A stretch of 8,952 bases of DNA. Source: a bacterium. Lineage in GTDB: Bacteria > BMS3Abin14. Under the pieces are notes generated by a model. The model saw only the letters and a list, made by a program, of their open reading frames with translations, was not told the origin of the DNA and ran no database searches. Made by a program: the position numbers and the translations under genes. Location of the stretch: positions 1 to 8,952 of the forward strand of contig JARGFV010000101.1 in assembly GCA_029210545.1 (NCBI GenBank). The letters are read 5' to 3'. Position 1 is the stretch's first letter; each line of letters starts with the position of its first letter. Positions 737-8,729 of this stretch are shown here, piece by piece.

Positions 737-752
737 GTCAGCATCAGCTGAC
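737..752 (-). terminator. Small hairpin spanning the dehydrogenase stop codon
   Basis: GTCAGC (737-742) and GCTGAC (747-752) are perfect 6-bp inverted arms around a 4-base loop that contains the gene's TGA stop (read at 746-744). No T-tract follows on the minus strand, so intrinsic terminator activity is doubtful. It could be an mRNA 3'-end structure. Confidence 0.3.
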
Positions 753-1691
753 TGTATTCACCGGCCTCCCATCCATCCACGCCTCCAGATTACTCACCAC
801 CGTCCCCATGAGCCTGCCCCTGGCCGCCTTCGTTGCCCACGCGATGTGGGGTGTGATCACACAGTTTCTGGCCGAGAGAAGGGGGTTGCCGGGAGGAGGC
901 GGTTCCACCGATAACACGTCCAGGCCCGCTCCAGCGAGGGCTCCCGCGTTGAGGGCGTCGGCCAGGGCCTGCTCATCCACCAGGGGGCCGCGGGCCGTGT
1001 TGATGAGGAACGCCGACGGTTTCATCCGGGTGAGCCGTTCCCGGTTGACAATGCCTACCGTCTTATCGGTCAGGGGGCAGTGCAGGGAAACGACGTCGCT
1101 TTCATTGAACAGGGTATCCAGGTCAAGGTACTGAACCCCTTCTTCAGATCCAGGAGTGCGAGTGTGGACCAGGACCTTCATCCCCATGGCCCTTGCTATC
1201 CGGGCCACCCCCTGCCCGATGGCGCCGTAACCCACGATACCAATGGTCAGGCCTGAAAGCTCGACAAGGGGAATTTCGTGAAAGCTGAAGTCCGGGCTTT
1301 TTGACCAGATACCTGAACGGACCGACCTGCTGTGGCGGCCGACTCCGTTTATCAGCTCCAGGAGAAGCGCAAAGACCATCTGGGCCACCGAATCGGTGCT
1401 GTATGCCGGAACGTTGGTAACAGCGATCCCGCTCTGCGCCGCAGCTTCGAGATCCACCACGTTGTACCCTGTGGCCAGTACGCCGACATATTTCAGATCG
1501 GGCAAGTTGGTGATGGCCTCGGCATCCAGAATCACCTTGTTGGTGAGCAGTACCTCGGCTCCGACAGCCCTGTCCATGAGCTCATCGGGTGAGGTCCTGT
1601 CATGGACGGTAACCTCACCGAGCTTTCCCAGCCCCTCCCACGACAGGTCGCCAGGGTTCAAGGTGTAACCGTCGAGAACGACGATCTTCAT
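744..1691 (-). CDS. D-2-hydroxyacid dehydrogenase (glycerate dehydrogenase / hydroxypyruvate reductase type)
   Basis: A 315-residue cytoplasmic oxidoreductase, normal length for the family, expected to interconvert 2-keto acids such as hydroxypyruvate or glyoxylate with D-2-hydroxy acids. The N-terminus MKIVVLDGYTLNPGDLSW is typical of the glycerate dehydrogenase branch. The Rossmann motif GIVGYGAIG is at 151-159. The catalytic set is R234 (in NTARG), E263 (in SVEP) and H282 (in TPHIAW), all present. After the second beta strand the sequence is VLVHTRTP (about 173-180). T177 and R178 stand where NAD-specific enzymes usually carry an acidic residue, which suggests NADPH use; this is inferred. 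I chose the ATG at 1691 because GGAG lies 9 bases upstream. An in-frame TTG at 1706 would add only five residues and would consume that ribosome site. The exact substrate cannot be read from sequence. Confidence 0.93.
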   Translation of the reverse strand: MKIVVLDGYTLNPGDLSWEGLGKLGEVTVHDRTSPDELMDRAVGAEVLLTNKVILDAEAITNLPDLKYVGVLATGYNVVDLEAAAQSGIAVTNVPAYSTDSVAQMVFALLLELINGVGRHSRSVRSGIWSKSPDFSFHEIPLVELSGLTIGIVGYGAIGQGVARIARAMGMKVLVHTRTPGSEEGVQYLDLDTLFNESDVVSLHCPLTDKTVGIVNRERLTRMKPSAFLINTARGPLVDEQALADALNAGALAGAGLDVLSVEPPPPGNPLLSARNCVITPHIAWATKAARGRLMGTVVSNLEAWMDGRPVNTVS

Positions 1692-1721
1692 GGCAGGGTT
1701 CTCCAAATTCAGATTTCACCC

Positions 1722-1743
1722 TTCGACAAGGCTCAGGGCAGGC
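1722..1743 (+). repeat. Short dispersed repeat (gacaaggctcagggcagg family), copy 1
   Basis: The core is gacaaggctcagggcagg. Related copies occur at 1790-1810 in the same orientation and at 8826-8844 and 8845-8865 in the opposite orientation. It sits in the dehydrogenase leader, starting 31 bp upstream of the ATG. Repeats of this form are common in intergenic DNA of several environmental bacterial lineages; this is general knowledge, not checked here. Confidence 0.7.
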
Positions 1744-1789
1744 ATTTCAAATTTCAAGATTAGAGCCTAATCCAACACAAAGTACACCA

Positions 1790-1810
1790 TTCGACAGGCT
1801 CATGGCAGGC
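1790..1810 (+). repeat. Short dispersed repeat, copy 2
   Basis: Core gacaggctcatggcaggc. It differs from copy 1 (1722-1743) by a one-base deletion and one substitution. It lies 46 bp to the right of copy 1, in the same orientation. Confidence 0.65.
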
Positions 1811-1910
1811 GAAGGGGCACGAAGGGTTTGATCAAAACACCAAATCCCTACTTTGTGAACTTCGTGTTCAACAGCTCTTTTACTCTCCTGTCAAGATCGT
1901 ACGTCTGTGA

Positions 1911-1973
1911 GTGCGTTAAGCGTGAATGCGTAAGATCTTACGCTGCCACGCACGTACGCTCTACGCCCACACG
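1911..1973. repeat. Palindrome-centred repeat flanking the ABC-F gene, left copy
   Basis: About 63 bp, related over its whole length to 3894-3956 and in the same orientation. It is built on gcgtaagatcttacgc (1928-1943), a perfect 16-bp palindrome. It ends four bases before the ABC-F stop codon. On the minus strand the palindrome could act as a weak transcript-end hairpin for the ABC-F gene, but there is no T-tract. Confidence 0.75.
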
Positions 1974-1976
1974 AAA

Positions 1977-3824
1977 TTACAGCTTTTCGCTCCACTCCTG
2001 TTCTAACCGTTCCAGCTCTTCGGTAACCCCGAAAAGCTCCTCATAGTTTCTCTCCAGCTCGTCCTTTAGCTCACTCAGCTGCTTGCTCAGGGAGGCGATG
2101 GCATCCCCGTCCCCCGAGTTGGAAGCGGCGATCAGCTCTTCGTTGACCTTCTCCACCTCCAGCTCCAGCTCCCGGACTTCCCTTTCCAGCCCCTCCGTCT
2201 TTTCCTTTAACGGCGCCAGATCCCGGGCCTTTTCCTTCAGCAGCCGGGCCTTCTCCTTCCTCGCCTCTTTTTTAGACTCGCCTTTAGGTAGTTTCTCCGT
2301 GTCTCCGTGTCCCCGCGTCCCCGTGTCAGGAAGCTCCTCACTCTCCCAGCCCACCTCATCCAGGAAGTTCCGGTAGGTCCCTTCGAAAACGGCGCTCCGG
2401 CCGCGGTCGAACACCACCAGGCGCTGGGCCAGGCTGTGGAGGAACATCTCGTTGTGGGTGACGATGACGACGGCACCCTCGAACTGAACCAGGGCGCTCA
2501 GCAGGGCCTCACACGAATCCATATCCAGATGGTTGGTCGGTTCGTCGAGAAGGAGGAGGTTGTGAGGTTCCAGAAGGAGACGTCCCAGGAGCACCCGGCT
2601 TTTCTCCCCTCCGGAAAGAACCGATATTTTCTTGAGGGCGGCATCTCCCTCGAACATCATGGTGCCGGCGACGCCCCTCGCCTTTTGTACCGACCTGTCA
2701 GGATCGCCCGCCACCAGTTCCTCCACGACTGTCCGGTTCGGTTCGAGCCTCTCCACGTTGGTCTGTCCGTAAAACCCCATCCGGGCAGTCCCGTGAGCCC
2801 CCACGGTCCCCGTTCCCGGTTCAAGCTCCCCTGCCAGGACCCGCAGAAAGGTGGACTTCCCCTTGCCGTTGGGGCCCACCACTGCGATGCGGTCACCTCT
2901 GCCAACCGTAAGGTCGAGGCCGGCAAACAGTTCCGGGAACTCAGATGACCACCGATACCCCAGGTCCCTGCACTGGATAATGACCTTGGACTCCATGGGC
3001 GCCAGGCGAAAGTTGAAATCCATGGAGCGGATCGCCTCGAGCCGGTCCGGCACCTTCTGCTTTTCCAGGGTCCGGATGCGGGACTGGACCAGCCCCACCA
3101 GCCGGGCCTTGGCCCTGAACTTCCGGATAAACTCTTCGGTCTGTTTTCGCTTGCGTTCGATGTTGATCCGGGATTTTTCGTGGACCTCCTCTTCCAGGGC
3201 GATCTGGCCATAGTACCTGGCCGTATCGCCGGGCATCTTCCGGATCCGGCGCCGATGGATCCCCATGGTGTGGGTGGTCACCGAATCCATGAAGCTGCGG
3301 TCGTGGGTCACGAGCAGGAGTTCACCCCTCCACGAGCGGAAAAACCGTTCCAGCCAGCGGATGGCCACGATGTCCAGGTAGTTGGTGGGCTCGTCCAGCA
3401 GCAGAAAATCGGGATCGGAAACCAGGAGCTTTGCCAGGTTCAGGCGCACCTGGTAGCCGCCGGAGAAGGTGTAGGGCGGCCTTTCCATGTCGGCCCTGGA
3501 AAAACCCAGGCCTGCCAGTACCTTTTCGGCCTTCCAGCTCTGGTCCTTATCCTCTTCGGGCAGACCCAGGGCCGCCTCAGTGAGAACGGTTGACTCGGTA
3601 AAATCCAGCTGCTGTCGAAGGTGGCCGATGCGGTAGCCCCGCGGCGCCGTGATAATGCCCGAATCGGGCGTCTCCTCCCCCGCTATGAGCCTCAGGAAGG
3701 TGGTTTTGCCATGACCGTTTCGCCCCACCAGGCCGACCCGCTCGCCCCGGTTGATGTTGACGGTCACCCCCTCGAAGAGGGCCTGAGTGCCGTATGACTT
3801 GGAGAGGTTCTCGATCTTGAGCAT
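1977..3824 (-). CDS. ABC-F family ATPase (ribosome-associated, Uup/YheS/EttA type)
   Basis: A 615-residue soluble protein with two fused ABC ATPase domains and no membrane segment, the hallmark of ABC-F proteins that act on the ribosome. Domain 1: Walker A GRNGHGKTT (34-42), signature FSGGYQ (120-125), Walker B LLLDEP (141-146), switch H174. A charged helical linker (about 200-275) is the P-site tRNA-interaction region. Domain 2: Walker A GPNGKGKST (317-325), signature LSGGEKSR (403-410), LLLLDEP (423-429), switch H457. A Lys/Glu-rich coiled coil fills 515-615. Residues 500-511 are encoded by a dispersed repeat. The ATG fits the family N-terminus (MLKIENLSKSYG), but the bases before it (tctccttcc) are not Shine-Dalgarno-like. 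Whether it is a housekeeping translation factor or an antibiotic-protection protein cannot be decided here. Confidence 0.95.
   Translation of the reverse strand: MLKIENLSKSYGTQALFEGVTVNINRGERVGLVGRNGHGKTTFLRLIAGEETPDSGIITAPRGYRIGHLRQQLDFTESTVLTEAALGLPEEDKDQSWKAEKVLAGLGFSRADMERPPYTFSGGYQVRLNLAKLLVSDPDFLLLDEPTNYLDIVAIRWLERFFRSWRGELLLVTHDRSFMDSVTTHTMGIHRRRIRKMPGDTARYYGQIALEEEVHEKSRINIERKRKQTEEFIRKFRAKARLVGLVQSRIRTLEKQKVPDRLEAIRSMDFNFRLAPMESKVIIQCRDLGYRWSSEFPELFAGLDLTVGRGDRIAVVGPNGKGKSTFLRVLAGELEPGTGTVGAHGTARMGFYGQTNVERLEPNRTVVEELVAGDPDRSVQKARGVAGTMMFEGDAALKKISVLSGGEKSRVLLGRLLLEPHNLLLLDEPTNHLDMDSCEALLSALVQFEGAVVIVTHNEMFLHSLAQRLVVFDRGRSAVFEGTYRNFLDEVGWESEELPDTGTRGHGDTEKLPKGESKKEARKEKARLLKEKARDLAPLKEKTEGLEREVRELELEVEKVNEELIAASNSGDGDAIASLSKQLSELKDELERNYEELFGVTEELERLEQEWSEKL
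2292..2327 (-). repeat. 36-bp octamer-based repeat translated within the ABC-F gene
   Basis: Ungapped 31/36 match to the intergenic repeat at 653-688, made of 8-base units such as tctccgtg. It covers exactly 12 codons, residues 500-511 (from DTGTRGHG to DTEK), between the second ATPase domain and the C-terminal coiled coil. Its length is a multiple of three, so the frame is kept. Confidence 0.75.
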
Positions 3825-3971: not shown

Positions 3972-4000
3972 GCATTGATCAGGCGTCAGCTGATCAATGC
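3972..4000 (-). terminator. Perfect 11-bp hairpin overlapping the kinase stop codon
   Basis: Arms gcattgatcag (3972-3982) and ctgatcaatgc (3990-4000) pair perfectly around a 7-base loop. The stop codon of the membrane kinase gene (3996-3994) lies within the right arm. It is placed correctly for the 3' end of the kinase transcript but lacks a T-run, so Rho-independent termination is uncertain. Confidence 0.45.
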
Positions 4001-6060
4001 ACTTCCGTCCCGGCCTCCTGATGTTCCTTGAAAGTCATCATGAAGGAGGTCCCGCCCTCGCCGTTGTACGTTAGCTCCCCGCCAAGCTGCTCCACCAGGA
4101 CCACGACCAGCTGCATCCCCATGGATTTGACCTTGCGGTAGTCCATCCCCTCGGGCAGCCCGACCCCGTCGTCGCTGATGGTCAGGGTGTAGGTGCCGCC
4201 CAGTCTCGTTACCGAAACCTCGATCTTCCCCTTACGCTGGTCCGGGAAGGCGTGCTTGAGGGCGTTGGAGATAAGTTCGTTGACGATGAGCCCGCAGGGG
4301 ATCGCCGTATCCAGGTTTATATCCAGGACCGGGATATCCAGGACCAGTTGGATGGCCTCCTTTTTCACCATGTAGGATTGGAAAAGGTTCTCCACCAGGT
4401 CGCGGAGATACTTGGCCAGGTTGATCAGGGCCAGGTCCTCGCGCTGGTACAGCTCCTCGTGGATGAGGGCCATGGTCTTGATCCTGTTCTGGCTCTCCTT
4501 GAAGACGGAGCGCACACCAACATCGCCGATGTATTGTGACTGCAGGTTCAACAGCCCGGAGATAACCTGGAGGTTGTTCTTGACCCGGTGGTGGATCTCC
4601 CGCAAAAGGATCTCCTTTTCCGCCAGGGAGTTTCTGATGCGTTCCTGCGCCTCCTGCCGTTCAGAGATGTCCCTGATGACGGACAGGCCCAGGTACCGGT
4701 CACCCAGCTGGAAAGTCTGGGCGCTGATCTCCACGGGGATCAGGCTGCCTTCCTTCGAAACGAGCTTCCGCTCGAAGAAGGCCGTCCCGCCCATCTCAAG
4801 GTTTCCACTGTACATGGGCGCGTCACCGGCTTCTTCCGGAGCCTCCAGATCAAGGGGCGACATCTTCAGCAGCTCATATCGCCTGTATCCGACCAGGTTG
4901 CAGAATCCGCGGTTCACGTCCAGGAATGCGCCCGGCATCCCATCTTCATGAATCTCGTGGATGACCACGCCGTCCGAGATACTGTCGTACAGCATCCGGT
5001 ACCGTTCCTCGCTCCTGGCCAGGGCATCGTACGCCCTTTTGCGTTCGGAGATGTCCTCCAGGACGCTCAACGTGTTGGTAACGGTCCGATCTTTCCCGAA
5101 AATGGGGAGGATCGTCTCCCGGAGGTGACGGCCGAGACCGGGAGATTCGATCTCCTGGGGGCCCACCTGAACACCGTGATCCTGCACCCACCTGACGCTG
5201 TCGATGACCTTCCGCTTCTGCGGGCCATCGGGCATGAACTCTTCCAGGGTCCGGCCCATAACATTTTCCGGAACAAAACCGGTCACATCCTGGTAGGCGC
5301 TGCTCACCCTGACGATGCGCAGGTCCGGATCGTGGAGGACAAAAGCCACGGGGGAGGCGTCCAGGATCTTCTCATCGAGTTCCTGTATTTCTCGCAGTTT
5401 ACGCTCCGCCTCTTTTCTCTCGGTGATGTCCCTGACCATTGAGATGACGCGCTTTCCCCCTTCGAAGTCGAAAAGCTTCGAACTGATCTCCACGGGGATC
5501 CTGCGGCCGTCCTTGGCGATATGGACCCTCTCGAACACGGCCCGGCCATCTTTGAGGAGTTTCCTGACCACTTGGGGGTTTTCGTCCGCAGGTCCCTGGT
5601 CGCCAATATCCCCGGGCCTCAGCAAAAGGTACTCTTCCCGCGTGTACCCCAGCATGGAACAGGCCACGTCGTTGACCTCCAGAAAACGCCCCGGGGATCC
5701 GTCCGGATCGATGCCGCAGATCTCGATCCCGTCGTTCCCCATGTCGAAAAGGCTCCTGTATTTCGCTTCGCCGGCCCGGAGCTTTCGTTCGGTGAGTTCC
5801 TGGGCGAAGGTGTAAAAGAAGAATGCCCACAGGGCAGCCGTGAGCACCTCCATGTAATCCTCGATGGGGTCGAACCAGTTGGTCCACCCCGCCCATTCCA
5901 CGAAGTTGCCCGCATCGTGTGTGAAGGTCAGGGCGACAACCATGGTAAACAGAATGATCTCCGCTCCCCCGGGCTTCCGGAACAGCTCTGAGAGGATAAA
6001 GTACAGCGCTGCCAGGGAAGCCGCCGCCGCCGTGAGATCGATGAGGGCAACGATATTCAT
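3994..6060 (-). CDS. Membrane-anchored multi-PAS sensor histidine kinase, HisKA_2 type
   Basis: A 688-residue inner-membrane sensor kinase. Three hydrophobic helices (about 3-26, 33-48, 70-88) precede three PAS domains (about 98-215, 225-340, 348-470), each ending in a typical DIxER linker. The catalytic part has the HisKA_2 box EIHHRVKNNLQ (probable phosphorylated H491), the N box NELISNALKHAF (from N594), the G box DDGVGLP (630-636) and GEGGTSF near 667-673. It should autophosphorylate on His and pass phosphate to a response regulator not found here. The ATG at 6060 is chosen because it overlaps the upstream stop as ATGA and has AGGTGG 9 bases upstream. An in-frame GTG at 6096 would add 12 residues and extend further into the upstream gene. 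H48, D49, E55 and E67 in the membrane region are unusual polar residues. The sensed signal is unknown. Confidence 0.95.
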   Translation of the reverse strand: MNIVALIDLTAAAASLAALYFILSELFRKPGGAEIILFTMVVALTFTHDAGNFVEWAGWTNWFDPIEDYMEVLTAALWAFFFYTFAQELTERKLRAGEAKYRSLFDMGNDGIEICGIDPDGSPGRFLEVNDVACSMLGYTREEYLLLRPGDIGDQGPADENPQVVRKLLKDGRAVFERVHIAKDGRRIPVEISSKLFDFEGGKRVISMVRDITERKEAERKLREIQELDEKILDASPVAFVLHDPDLRIVRVSSAYQDVTGFVPENVMGRTLEEFMPDGPQKRKVIDSVRWVQDHGVQVGPQEIESPGLGRHLRETILPIFGKDRTVTNTLSVLEDISERKRAYDALARSEERYRMLYDSISDGVVIHEIHEDGMPGAFLDVNRGFCNLVGYRRYELLKMSPLDLEAPEEAGDAPMYSGNLEMGGTAFFERKLVSKEGSLIPVEISAQTFQLGDRYLGLSVIRDISERQEAQERIRNSLAEKEILLREIHHRVKNNLQVISGLLNLQSQYIGDVGVRSVFKESQNRIKTMALIHEELYQREDLALINLAKYLRDLVENLFQSYMVKKEAIQLVLDIPVLDINLDTAIPCGLIVNELISNALKHAFPDQRKGKIEVSVTRLGGTYTLTISDDGVGLPEGMDYRKVKSMGMQLVVVLVEQLGGELTYNGEGGTSFMMTFKEHQEAGTEVH

Positions 6061-6332
6061 CCCTGCTTCCCACCTCTCTGGAAGGTGACCCGGCACCAGG
6101 CTGCGATCATGATCGAGCAGAGCGCATAGGACAGGTGTTCCAGGATATTAAACAGGGAAGGAAAGGCAAACCCTTCCAGGATGGTGAGGGCCCACCCGGA
6201 GAACAGGCCCATGTAGGCGGCAAGGAGGAGCCTGAAGTTGGGGATGGAACGAAACCGTCGGGAGTTGGCCAGGACGTAAAGGGCAACGCCGAAACCCACG
6301 AGGAACGTGACGAGTTCGTTCTGCTGGATCAT
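6057..6332 (-). CDS. Small three-helix membrane protein coupled to the sensor kinase
   Basis: A 91-residue protein of unknown function with three predicted membrane helices (about 7-22, 33-52, 64-82) and a basic C-terminus (FQRGGKQG). Its TGA overlaps the ATG of the downstream kinase as ATGA, so the two are probably translationally coupled and made in matched amounts. It aligns almost without gaps to the first 90 residues of that kinase. ALY is at 17-19 versus 18-20; E53, F61-N62 and E65 match E55, F63-D64 and E67. I infer a shared ancestral three-helix module. The protein has no catalytic domain, so it probably acts as a sensor partner or assembly subunit. The start is an ATG with GGGAGG only 2 bases upstream, closer than ideal, but no better in-frame start is visible. 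Confidence 0.85.
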   Translation of the reverse strand: MIQQNELVTFLVGFGVALYVLANSRRFRSIPNFRLLLAAYMGLFSGWALTILEGFAFPSLFNILEHLSYALCSIMIAAWCRVTFQRGGKQG

Positions 6333-6604: not shown

Positions 6605-8695
6605 TCAGTACAGTACCGTCCCCGCCTCGTGGTACTCGCTGAAGACCATGGTGAAGCTCGTTCCTTCGCCGGCTCCGATCTCCAGGGTTCCTCCCAGCTG
6701 CTGGACCAGAACGGTGACCAGCCGCATCCCCAGGGTAGACGTACGTTGGATATCCACATCCCCGGGAATACCAACCCCGTCGTCACTGACTGTCAGCTCA
6801 TACAACTCATCGGGGAGGGTGTGGAAAGAGATGCTGATGGTTCCTTTCCTGTCGCCGGGAAAAGCGTGCTTGAGGGAGTTTGTCACCAGTTCGTTGATGA
6901 TGAGGCCGCACGGGATGGCGGTATCCACCACCATGTTTGCCTTCCCTGTATCGACCTTCAGATCGATGCGTTCGCGGTCGACCCCGTAGGAGATCATGAG
7001 GTTATCGCACAGGTTCCGGATGTAATCGCCGAAATGAACCTGGGCAAGGTCGGTGCTCTGGTAAAGTTCCTCGTGGATGAGAGCCATGGTGATGACCCTG
7101 TTCTGGCTTTCCTTGTAAACCGCCCGGCCCAGGGGATCGGTGATGTGATGGGCCTGGAGGTCCAAAAGGCCGGAGATCACCTGGAGGTTGTTCTTGACCC
7201 GGTGGTGGATCTCCTTGAGCAGGATCTCTTTTTCTTCAAGGGAGGACTTGAGCTGTTCCCGTGCCTCCATGAGGCGTGTGACGTCTCGGACGATGATGAG
7301 AAGGTGGGCTTTGCCGGCAAGGTCAATAGTACGGGCCGACAACAGTCCTCTCTTGACCGTTCCATCCTTCGTTCGGAAATCGCCCTCGAAACTCTCCACG
7401 CTGCCGGGTCCGGAAATGGCTTCGTAGAAGCGATCCCTGTCCGACTTGTCGGCCCAGACCCCGACCTTCATGGCGTTTCGTCCGAGCACCTCTTCCTTCT
7501 CATACCCGCTGTTCGAGACGAACTCCTCGTTGACGTCCACAATGGTCCTCTTTTCAAGATCCACGATGACGATGCAGTCGGGGCTGGTCTCGAAGGCAAC
7601 CCGAAACCGCTCCTCGCTCTGTTCCAGTTCCTTCCGCATTCGGACCTTTTCGGTCACGTCGTTGCACAGGACCAGCCGCGCCCTCGTCTGCCTGAAGGGA
7701 AAGTCACTGCTCGTGGTCTCCACGTCGATGACAGAACCGTCCGCTCTCAGGTGGCGCCTTTGGCCCAGCCAGATCTGGCCTGGGCGCCGATCGGACACGT
7801 TTTTCAAAAGTTCCTTCACATCCTCCGGGGGACGGATATCCTTGATGCCCATGGCCGTCATCTCGTCCCTGGTGTACCCGTAGTTCACAGTCATGGCCTT
7901 GTTGACCTCGAGGATCATCAGGGTGTCCATGTCGTAGATGTACATGGGGACAGGGTTCTTCTCGAAGACATGCCGGTACCTCGCCTCCGATTCGATAAGT
8001 TCCTGGTCTGCCTGGACTTTCGCGGTGATGTCCCTGATGAAATACGCGACACCGGCCACCCGGCCATCGGGTCCGTGCAAGGGGTTGGTGTTGACCTCGA
8101 AGACCTGGTCCCGGGAGATGTCCAGCGCCAGGGTGGGCTCCCCGGTTCGCAGAACCCCTGCGAACCTCTGCCTGCGCACGGCTGTCGTCTCCCCATCGAG
8201 GAGATCCCAGTAGAGGACCCCTGTCATTTTTTCGGCTTTCATGCCGTAGTCGGAGGCAGCCCGGTCATTGATGGCCATGATCCGCCCCTCCCTGTCCAGG
8301 AGGAATGCCATGTCGGTGGAAGCGTTGATAAGGGCCCGCAGCGATTCGTCGGAACGGCGATGCTCGGTGACATCCCGCACCATGACCAGGACCTCTCCCT
8401 CGTCGAGATGGATGAACCGGGCCTCGAAATGCTCCTTATCTCCCTGCACGGGAAGGGTGTAGGACATTCGGCTCTCCTGGCCGGTTGCGAGGACCCTCCT
8501 CACGTGTTCCATGGCTGCTTCGGAAATTTCATGGGAAAACACCTCCGCAAGGGGTTTCTCGAGGAACTGTTCCGGAGGGATGAGAGGCTGTGTCGTTCGG
8601 GAGGGCTTGAAATCGAGGAGGACCCCGTCACCGTCCAGGATAAAGTACATGTCCGGGACGGCGTCCAGGATCTTCTGCAGTTTGGAACGATCCAT
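6605..8695 (-). CDS. Soluble four-PAS sensor histidine kinase, HisKA_2 type
   Basis: A 696-residue cytoplasmic kinase with no hydrophobic segment. Four PAS domains lie at about 3-112, 115-225, 235-350 and 357-475, each closed by a (V/I)RD(V/I)T or CNDVTE linker. The catalytic part has EIHHRVKNNLQ (probable phosphorylated H498), the N box NELVTNSLKHAF (from N601), the G box DDGVGIP (638-644) and GEGTSF (676-681). It is a close paralogue of the membrane kinase to its left from about residue 484 to the end, including the tail (YHEAGTVLY versus HQEAGTEVH). No regulator gene adjoins it. I prefer the ATG at 8695; an in-frame TTG at 8701 would add two residues. Neither has a strong ribosome site (GGTG lies 8 bases before the ATG). 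The signal is probably intracellular but unidentified. Confidence 0.95.
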   Translation of the reverse strand: MDRSKLQKILDAVPDMYFILDGDGVLLDFKPSRTTQPLIPPEQFLEKPLAEVFSHEISEAAMEHVRRVLATGQESRMSYTLPVQGDKEHFEARFIHLDEGEVLVMVRDVTEHRRSDESLRALINASTDMAFLLDREGRIMAINDRAASDYGMKAEKMTGVLYWDLLDGETTAVRRQRFAGVLRTGEPTLALDISRDQVFEVNTNPLHGPDGRVAGVAYFIRDITAKVQADQELIESEARYRHVFEKNPVPMYIYDMDTLMILEVNKAMTVNYGYTRDEMTAMGIKDIRPPEDVKELLKNVSDRRPGQIWLGQRRHLRADGSVIDVETTSSDFPFRQTRARLVLCNDVTEKVRMRKELEQSEERFRVAFETSPDCIVIVDLEKRTIVDVNEEFVSNSGYEKEEVLGRNAMKVGVWADKSDRDRFYEAISGPGSVESFEGDFRTKDGTVKRGLLSARTIDLAGKAHLLIIVRDVTRLMEAREQLKSSLEEKEILLKEIHHRVKNNLQVISGLLDLQAHHITDPLGRAVYKESQNRVITMALIHEELYQSTDLAQVHFGDYIRNLCDNLMISYGVDRERIDLKVDTGKANMVVDTAIPCGLIINELVTNSLKHAFPGDRKGTISISFHTLPDELYELTVSDDGVGIPGDVDIQRTSTLGMRLVTVLVQQLGGTLEIGAGEGTSFTMVFSEYHEAGTVLY

Positions 8696-8729
8696 ATCCA
8701 ACGCACCAGGGCAAGGGTATAAAAGCTGT

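Follow-up and report, generated by a model that had tools for sequence, protein, structure and literature searches.

Co-component systems such as VtrA/VtrC are the closest known design to the gene pair described here. In these systems, which also include ToxR/ToxS, the membrane sensor is obligately made of two parts, whose genes are adjacent and in many cases overlap (Kinch et al. 2022, PMC9214523). The pair shares with VtrA/VtrC an overlapping two-gene plan with one output-bearing partner and one free co-sensor: the genes are adjacent at 33 of 33 loci and overlap by 4 bases at 21. VtrA/VtrC, found in enteric bacteria, has a periplasmic lipocalin-like beta barrel as its sensor and a membrane-tethered HTH transcription factor as its output (PMC9214523), whereas the pair described here is predicted to be all-helical and intramembrane, its partners look like copies of each other, the small gene comes first, and the outputs are HK, GGDEF and HD (kinases and c-di-GMP-type domains).

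Intramembrane-sensing histidine kinases (LiaFS, BceAB-BceS) are characterized by short extracytoplasmic loops, sensing at the membrane and dependence on a membrane partner (PMC8534201), features that are predicted or may be supposed for the pair as well. Their input has two helices, and their partner is a transporter or a LiaF-type protein (PMC8534201), while the kinase described here has three helices and a similar three-helix partner of 91 aa. The small membrane proteins MgrB, SafA and UgtL act on the kinase PhoQ, as the small protein of the pair may act on its own kinase, but they are mostly single-pass connectors or feedback regulators, and no likeness to the sensor of the kinase itself is described for them (PMC8534201).

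MASE-type domains, like the module studied here, are N-terminal multi-helix inputs common to histidine kinases and c-di-GMP proteins. They are single-chain and larger, and their definition, unlike the pair, includes no partner gene. The pair is filed here under accessory-dependent membrane sensors.

Gene Pair and Its Surroundings

The window, i.e., the whole stretch of DNA that was analysed, is 8,952 nucleotides long and carries the following features of the pair:

6057..6332, minus strand: gene of the small membrane protein P0001 (91 aa), the free-standing three-helix partner; homologues were found
6252..6323, minus strand: helix 1 of the small protein, residues 4–27, with a break at 23 (AlphaFold2, conservation)
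6174..6236, minus strand: helix 2 of the small protein, residues 33–53, with E53 at its end (AlphaFold2, conservation)
6135..6176, minus strand: motif E53-x8-N62-x2-E65-H66 of the small protein, spanning the outer turn from helix 2 to helix 3 (conservation)
6069..6161, minus strand: helix 3 of the small protein, residues 58–88 (AlphaFold2)
6057..6060, minus strand: ATGA overlap of the small gene stop and the kinase gene start
3994..6060, minus strand: gene of the sensor histidine kinase P0002 (688 aa), with its ATG at 6060
5773..6060, minus strand: N-terminal three-helix sensor module of the kinase, residues 1–96 (alignments, AlphaFold2)
5857..5907, minus strand: motif N52-x2-E55-x8-D64-x2-E67-D68 of the module, spanning the outer turn from helix 2 to helix 3 (conservation)
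4639..5721, minus strand: three PAS domains, residues 114–474 (Pfam)
4372..4599, minus strand: HisKA_2 phosphoacceptor domain, residues 488–563 (Pfam, E-value 2.7e-30)
4024..4290, minus strand: HATPase_c domain, residues 591–679 (Pfam)

The coordinates in an earlier note on this DNA are correct; the two genes lie at 6057–6332 and 3994–6060 on the minus strand, and the ATGA overlap reported there was confirmed at 6057–6060. P0001 is a hydrophobic protein. P0002 consists, in this order, of the three-helix module, three PAS domains, HisKA_2 and HATPase_c, and its catalytic half is that of a HisKA_2 sensor histidine kinase (PF07568, 104.7 bits against a cut-off of 22.3; PF02518, 53.4 bits against 26.4).

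A second kinase gene with PAS domains and HisKA_2, encoding no membrane domain, lies upstream of the pair (window 6605–8701, minus strand). Kinase genes likewise end just upstream of the pair at the G005, G006, G007 and G008 loci, and a soluble kinase may therefore be a partner of the unit. Downstream of P0002 (window 744–3824, minus strand), genes for a D-2-hydroxyacid dehydrogenase (744–1706) and an ABC-F type ATPase (1977–3824) were found, and they occur in the same order in G005, G007 and G008. The intergenic region at 164–642 contains direct repeats: a 94 nt repeat present twice (at 164 and 549; 93%), a 69 nt repeat present twice (at 393 and 501; 90%), and a 20-nt element present three times.

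No Pfam or NCBIfam family, MASE1, MASE3 and the other membrane input domains included, reached its cut-off for P0001 or for the first ~96–97 residues of the kinase; the other members of the pairs gave only scattered weak matches (MASE1, 0.042; MASE3, 0.042). Sequence searches of the PDB revealed no relatives. That the pair belongs to no named family, as had been suggested from the sequence alone, is thus borne out by searches of Pfam, NCBIfam, PHROGs and PDB sequences, and no description of the pair was found in searches of the literature.

Distribution and Conserved Adjacency

In total, 33 pairs of small gene and sensor module were found; they come from 30 genomes, which belong to at least seven bacterial phyla. 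A scan of named genomes with the small protein yielded a single relative, L002, in a Spirochaetales metagenome-assembled genome (MAG). Searches with the small gene then gave 10 loci in the window's phylum (in seven of 12 genomes), another 11 intact loci in the phylum of the Spirochaetales MAG (392 genomes searched), four loci in genomes of other phyla, and one more locus. At all 27 of the loci found with the small gene first, the next gene begins with a related three-helix module, its start lying between 31 bases before and 7 bases after the stop of the small gene. The reverse search, with alignments of the module, returned the same 10 loci in the window's phylum and the same 12 in that of the Spirochaetales MAG. 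The two kinds of matches therefore correspond one to one (10 of 10 in the former phylum and, among the 392 genomes of the latter, 12 of 12 intact). The module-first search added six loci (L065, L070, L072, L104, L106 and L107), at each of which a small gene precedes the module; at least one of these small genes, that of L072, is too diverged for direct detection.

The small gene thus lies directly upstream of the module gene at 33 of the 33 intact loci, and the overlap is exactly 4 bases at 21. No credible orphan of either kind was seen in the small-gene and module searches of genomes, which scored a limited number of first-look candidates and could let very diverged orphans escape. Four candidates were rejected as chance weak matches, having internal stops or an unrelated context: L035 (stops inside), L060 (without a partner, inside a longer membrane ORF), L073 and L074. 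Homologues of the small gene, which according to the earlier note should adjoin such modules, were never found away from them. No plasmid relatives were found.

The flanking genes vary between loci while the pair stays intact. Pairwise distances among the small proteins correlate with those among the modules (r = 0.785; 0 of 5000 permutations), a correlation that shared descent alone would give. Three genomes carry two paralogous pairs each, and their partners are not mixed. In four genomes (loci L009, L010, L011 and L012), the second paralogous type of the pair neighbours a divergent gene that encodes a cysteine-rich CxxCxxCC protein; no Pfam family was found for one of these proteins.

Output Domains and a Natural Replacement

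The full-length partners of the small protein include three-PAS HisKA_2 kinases (P0002 is one), GAF-HisKA and PAS-HisKA kinases, and hybrid kinases with receiver domains, as well as one PAS-GGDEF protein, one PAS-HD protein and one short PAS protein. Thus, the placement of the module on a kinase is right for the gene in the window, but as a general rule the kinase is one of several outputs. Five kinases of 307–314 aa (L090, L092, L093, L095 and L103) consist of the module, HisKA_2 and HATPase_c only; as no other sensor domain is present in them, the membrane unit is their only visible input. In G153, the partner protein (L087, 5750–7780) stops inside its GGDEF domain, and the next frame, starting right after the stop, continues it; this may be a broken or split output gene.

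Two genomes of one genus, represented by L056 and L059, differ at this locus. The pair of L056 is intact. The DNA of L059 is 97% identical to that of L056 up to base 1660 (near codon 54 of the small gene); directly after the module, identity resumes at 96%. Between these points, a stretch corresponding to 1660–2047 of L056 has been swapped in L059 (1660–2034, minus-strand orientation) for a different membrane input domain, so that the small gene is cut at about residue 54 and the rest of the output protein is retained. Such a swap is expected if small gene and module together form an input unit that can be exchanged as a whole; being a single event, it supports this reading and does not prove it.

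Predicted Structure and Topology

AlphaFold2 models based on 30-row alignments place the helices of the small protein at residues 4–27, 33–53 and 58–88 (pLDDT 92.5), and those of the module at residues 3–28, 33–56 and 64–96 (pLDDT 94.7). The helix limits are thus nearly equal in the two predicted models, and the outer turn is predicted to be short in both (residues 54–57 and about 57–63, respectively). Helices 1 and 2 are joined by a basic loop, with 2.7 Lys/Arg per protein in the small protein and 3.1 in the module, and the turn between helices 2 and 3 is acidic (3.0 and 5.0 Asp/Glu, respectively). By the positive-inside rule, this charge pattern predicts that the N terminus is outside and the C terminus inside in both halves, and such a topology agrees with what the cytoplasmic domains of the kinase require. 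The three-helix topology and helix spacing proposed previously to be common to both parts were therefore recovered by AlphaFold2 and by the charge pattern.

Foldseek searches gave no match at an E-value of 0.001 or better, and the VIA-align Z values (up to 10) are in the range expected for any helical bundle. A resemblance to NuoK/ND4L-like three-helix subunits was set aside for this reason, as the fold matches were no better than those of any three-helix bundle.

Relationship of the Two Halves

The earlier note had regarded the small protein and the kinase sensor as two copies of one module with a nearly gap-free match. An ungapped scan with column permutation revealed that the whole-length, gap-free register +2 is uniquely best. 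For 23 pairs from outside the window's phylum, this register scores 25.5 and the runner-up offset 5.6, a value as high occurs in none of 3000 block-wise column permutations, and the best score with the module profile reversed is −9.1; with sequences unseen by the author of the earlier note, this test is the cleanest of those performed. When residue groups of 30 pairs were compared, register +2 scored 20.7 and the next offset 1.9 (0 of 6000 block-wise column permutations), and with E53, N62 and E65 masked it still scored 14.3 against 0.1 (3 of 6000). With identities only, 9 of 6000 permutations reached it. Significance of the register was not reached with the sequences of the window's phylum alone, which explains why pairwise BLASTP of the small protein against the kinase gave no alignment and why HHalign with mostly window-phylum sequences gave no match.

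The comparison of profiles gave a divided result. Without realignment, HHalign returned the predicted gap-free register +2, but with a probability of 17–76%, depending on the alignment, which is below the usual threshold, and for the 30-row alignment the reversed control nearly equals the true match. The realigned output favours a shifted match of NxLEH (residues 62–66 of the small protein) to NxLE (residues 52–55 of the module). Matches of single sequences to the HMM of the other half (E-values down to 6e-5) were discounted, as reversed sequences score about as well. Of the two-copies claim, the common topology and the shared register +2 stand, whereas homology is not formally established by HHalign; since the HHalign values remain below the usual threshold, a common origin of the small protein and the module by duplication is, on these alignments, probable and short of proof.

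Among 30 small proteins, E6, with which helix 1 begins on the predicted outer side, and H66 are invariant, while E53, N62 and E65 are conserved in at least 90%. In the modules, N52 is nearly invariant, and D8, E55, D64, E67 and D68 are the majority residues. Register +2 makes E6/D8, E53/E55, N62/D64, E65/E67 and H66/D68 equivalent, all of them at predicted outer helix ends, at the outer membrane face. Of the 33 small proteins, 30 carry the motif E-x8-[NDE]-x2-E-[HDE], as do 17 of the 33 modules, compared with 20 of 801 background windows. Conservation of the outer-site residues is not complete: the small proteins of L072 and L107 have K at both E53 and E65, and the module of L002 has no E55.

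The letters of the motif first noticed in the sequence (E53/F61/N62/E65 in the small protein and E55/F63/D64/E67 in the kinase) are as they were given. Two other details did not survive the comparison. The shared ALY (residues 17–19 of the small protein and 18–20 of the module) is one residue out of register +2 and not conserved, and is thus attributed to chance. The proposal of H48 of the kinase as a residue of the ligand or cofactor site is unsupported, since this histidine occurs in a minority of modules (about 22% by weight); the universal histidine is H66 of the small protein.

Proposed Mechanism and Alternative Explanations

The best reading of the data as a whole, and one that we consider likely, is that a single membrane sensory unit is made in two halves, one from the small gene and the other from the first ~96 codons of the gene that follows. 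Three transmembrane helices are predicted in each; the N and C termini would lie outside and inside, respectively, with the basic loop on the inner and the acidic turn on the outer side. Duplication of a single module is the probable source of both halves. We infer that the small protein and the module probably assemble as a 3+3 helix hetero-oligomer, in which the acidic and histidine residues at the outer face of both halves could form a composite site for a cation, a proton or a small polar ligand. Binding of the ligand or ion would shift helix 3 of the module, which is predicted to extend into the cytoplasm as the signalling helix of the output protein and would relay the change to the PAS/HisKA_2 kinase here and, elsewhere, to a different kinase or a protein with a GGDEF or an HD domain. 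The overlap of stop and start would link synthesis of the small protein to that of the kinase.

A possible but rather unlikely alternative is that the small protein binds the module as a regulator or chaperone, in an accessory role like that of MgrB, SafA or LiaF, and is not a second copy, the likeness being due to convergent packing against the module. Known accessory small membrane proteins do modulate kinases in this manner (PMC8534201), and the HHalign values short of the usual significance would suit such a role. Yet chance would hardly produce the full-length gap-free register along with agreement in acids, basic loop and helix limits, and the connectors reviewed in PMC8534201 show no pairing as strict as the obligate one-to-one association seen here across phyla and outputs.

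We regard as improbable that the pair is a two-gene unit for membrane anchoring or localisation and that the cytoplasmic PAS and GAF domains do the sensing. Such domains are present in most of the partners, P0002 included, but the five HisKA_2 kinases built of module and catalytic core only have none; moreover, an anchor needs no conserved charged residues at the outer helix ends, and in L059 it was another membrane input domain that took the place of the unit. Co-inheritance on a mobile operon, with no function in common, would account for the adjacency and for the patchy distribution (12 of 392 genomes in the phylum of the Spirochaetales MAG, seven of 12 in that of the window), but this is very improbable, as the flanking genes and outputs differ and yet the pair remains intact and co-diverging.

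The sensory unit of two halves may also be described in a broader way, in which we place about even confidence: a previously unnamed split sensor, derived from a duplicated three-helix module, one copy of which is free and the other fused to exchangeable outputs (histidine kinases, GGDEF, HD). It would always form a pseudo-symmetric 3+3 receptor with a composite acidic/His site at its outer face, and would have spread by exchange over many phyla.

Significance

Membrane input domains of unnamed families are a large blind spot in bacterial signalling. As the pair is apparently a compulsory two-gene unit, annotation would leave one half of it as a hypothetical protein, and would also miss that the kinase is probably incomplete without the small protein. 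The unit can be tested directly on the five minimal kinases of ~310 aa. The pair also points to a way in which a duplicated module may be divided into a shared receptor with interchangeable outputs.
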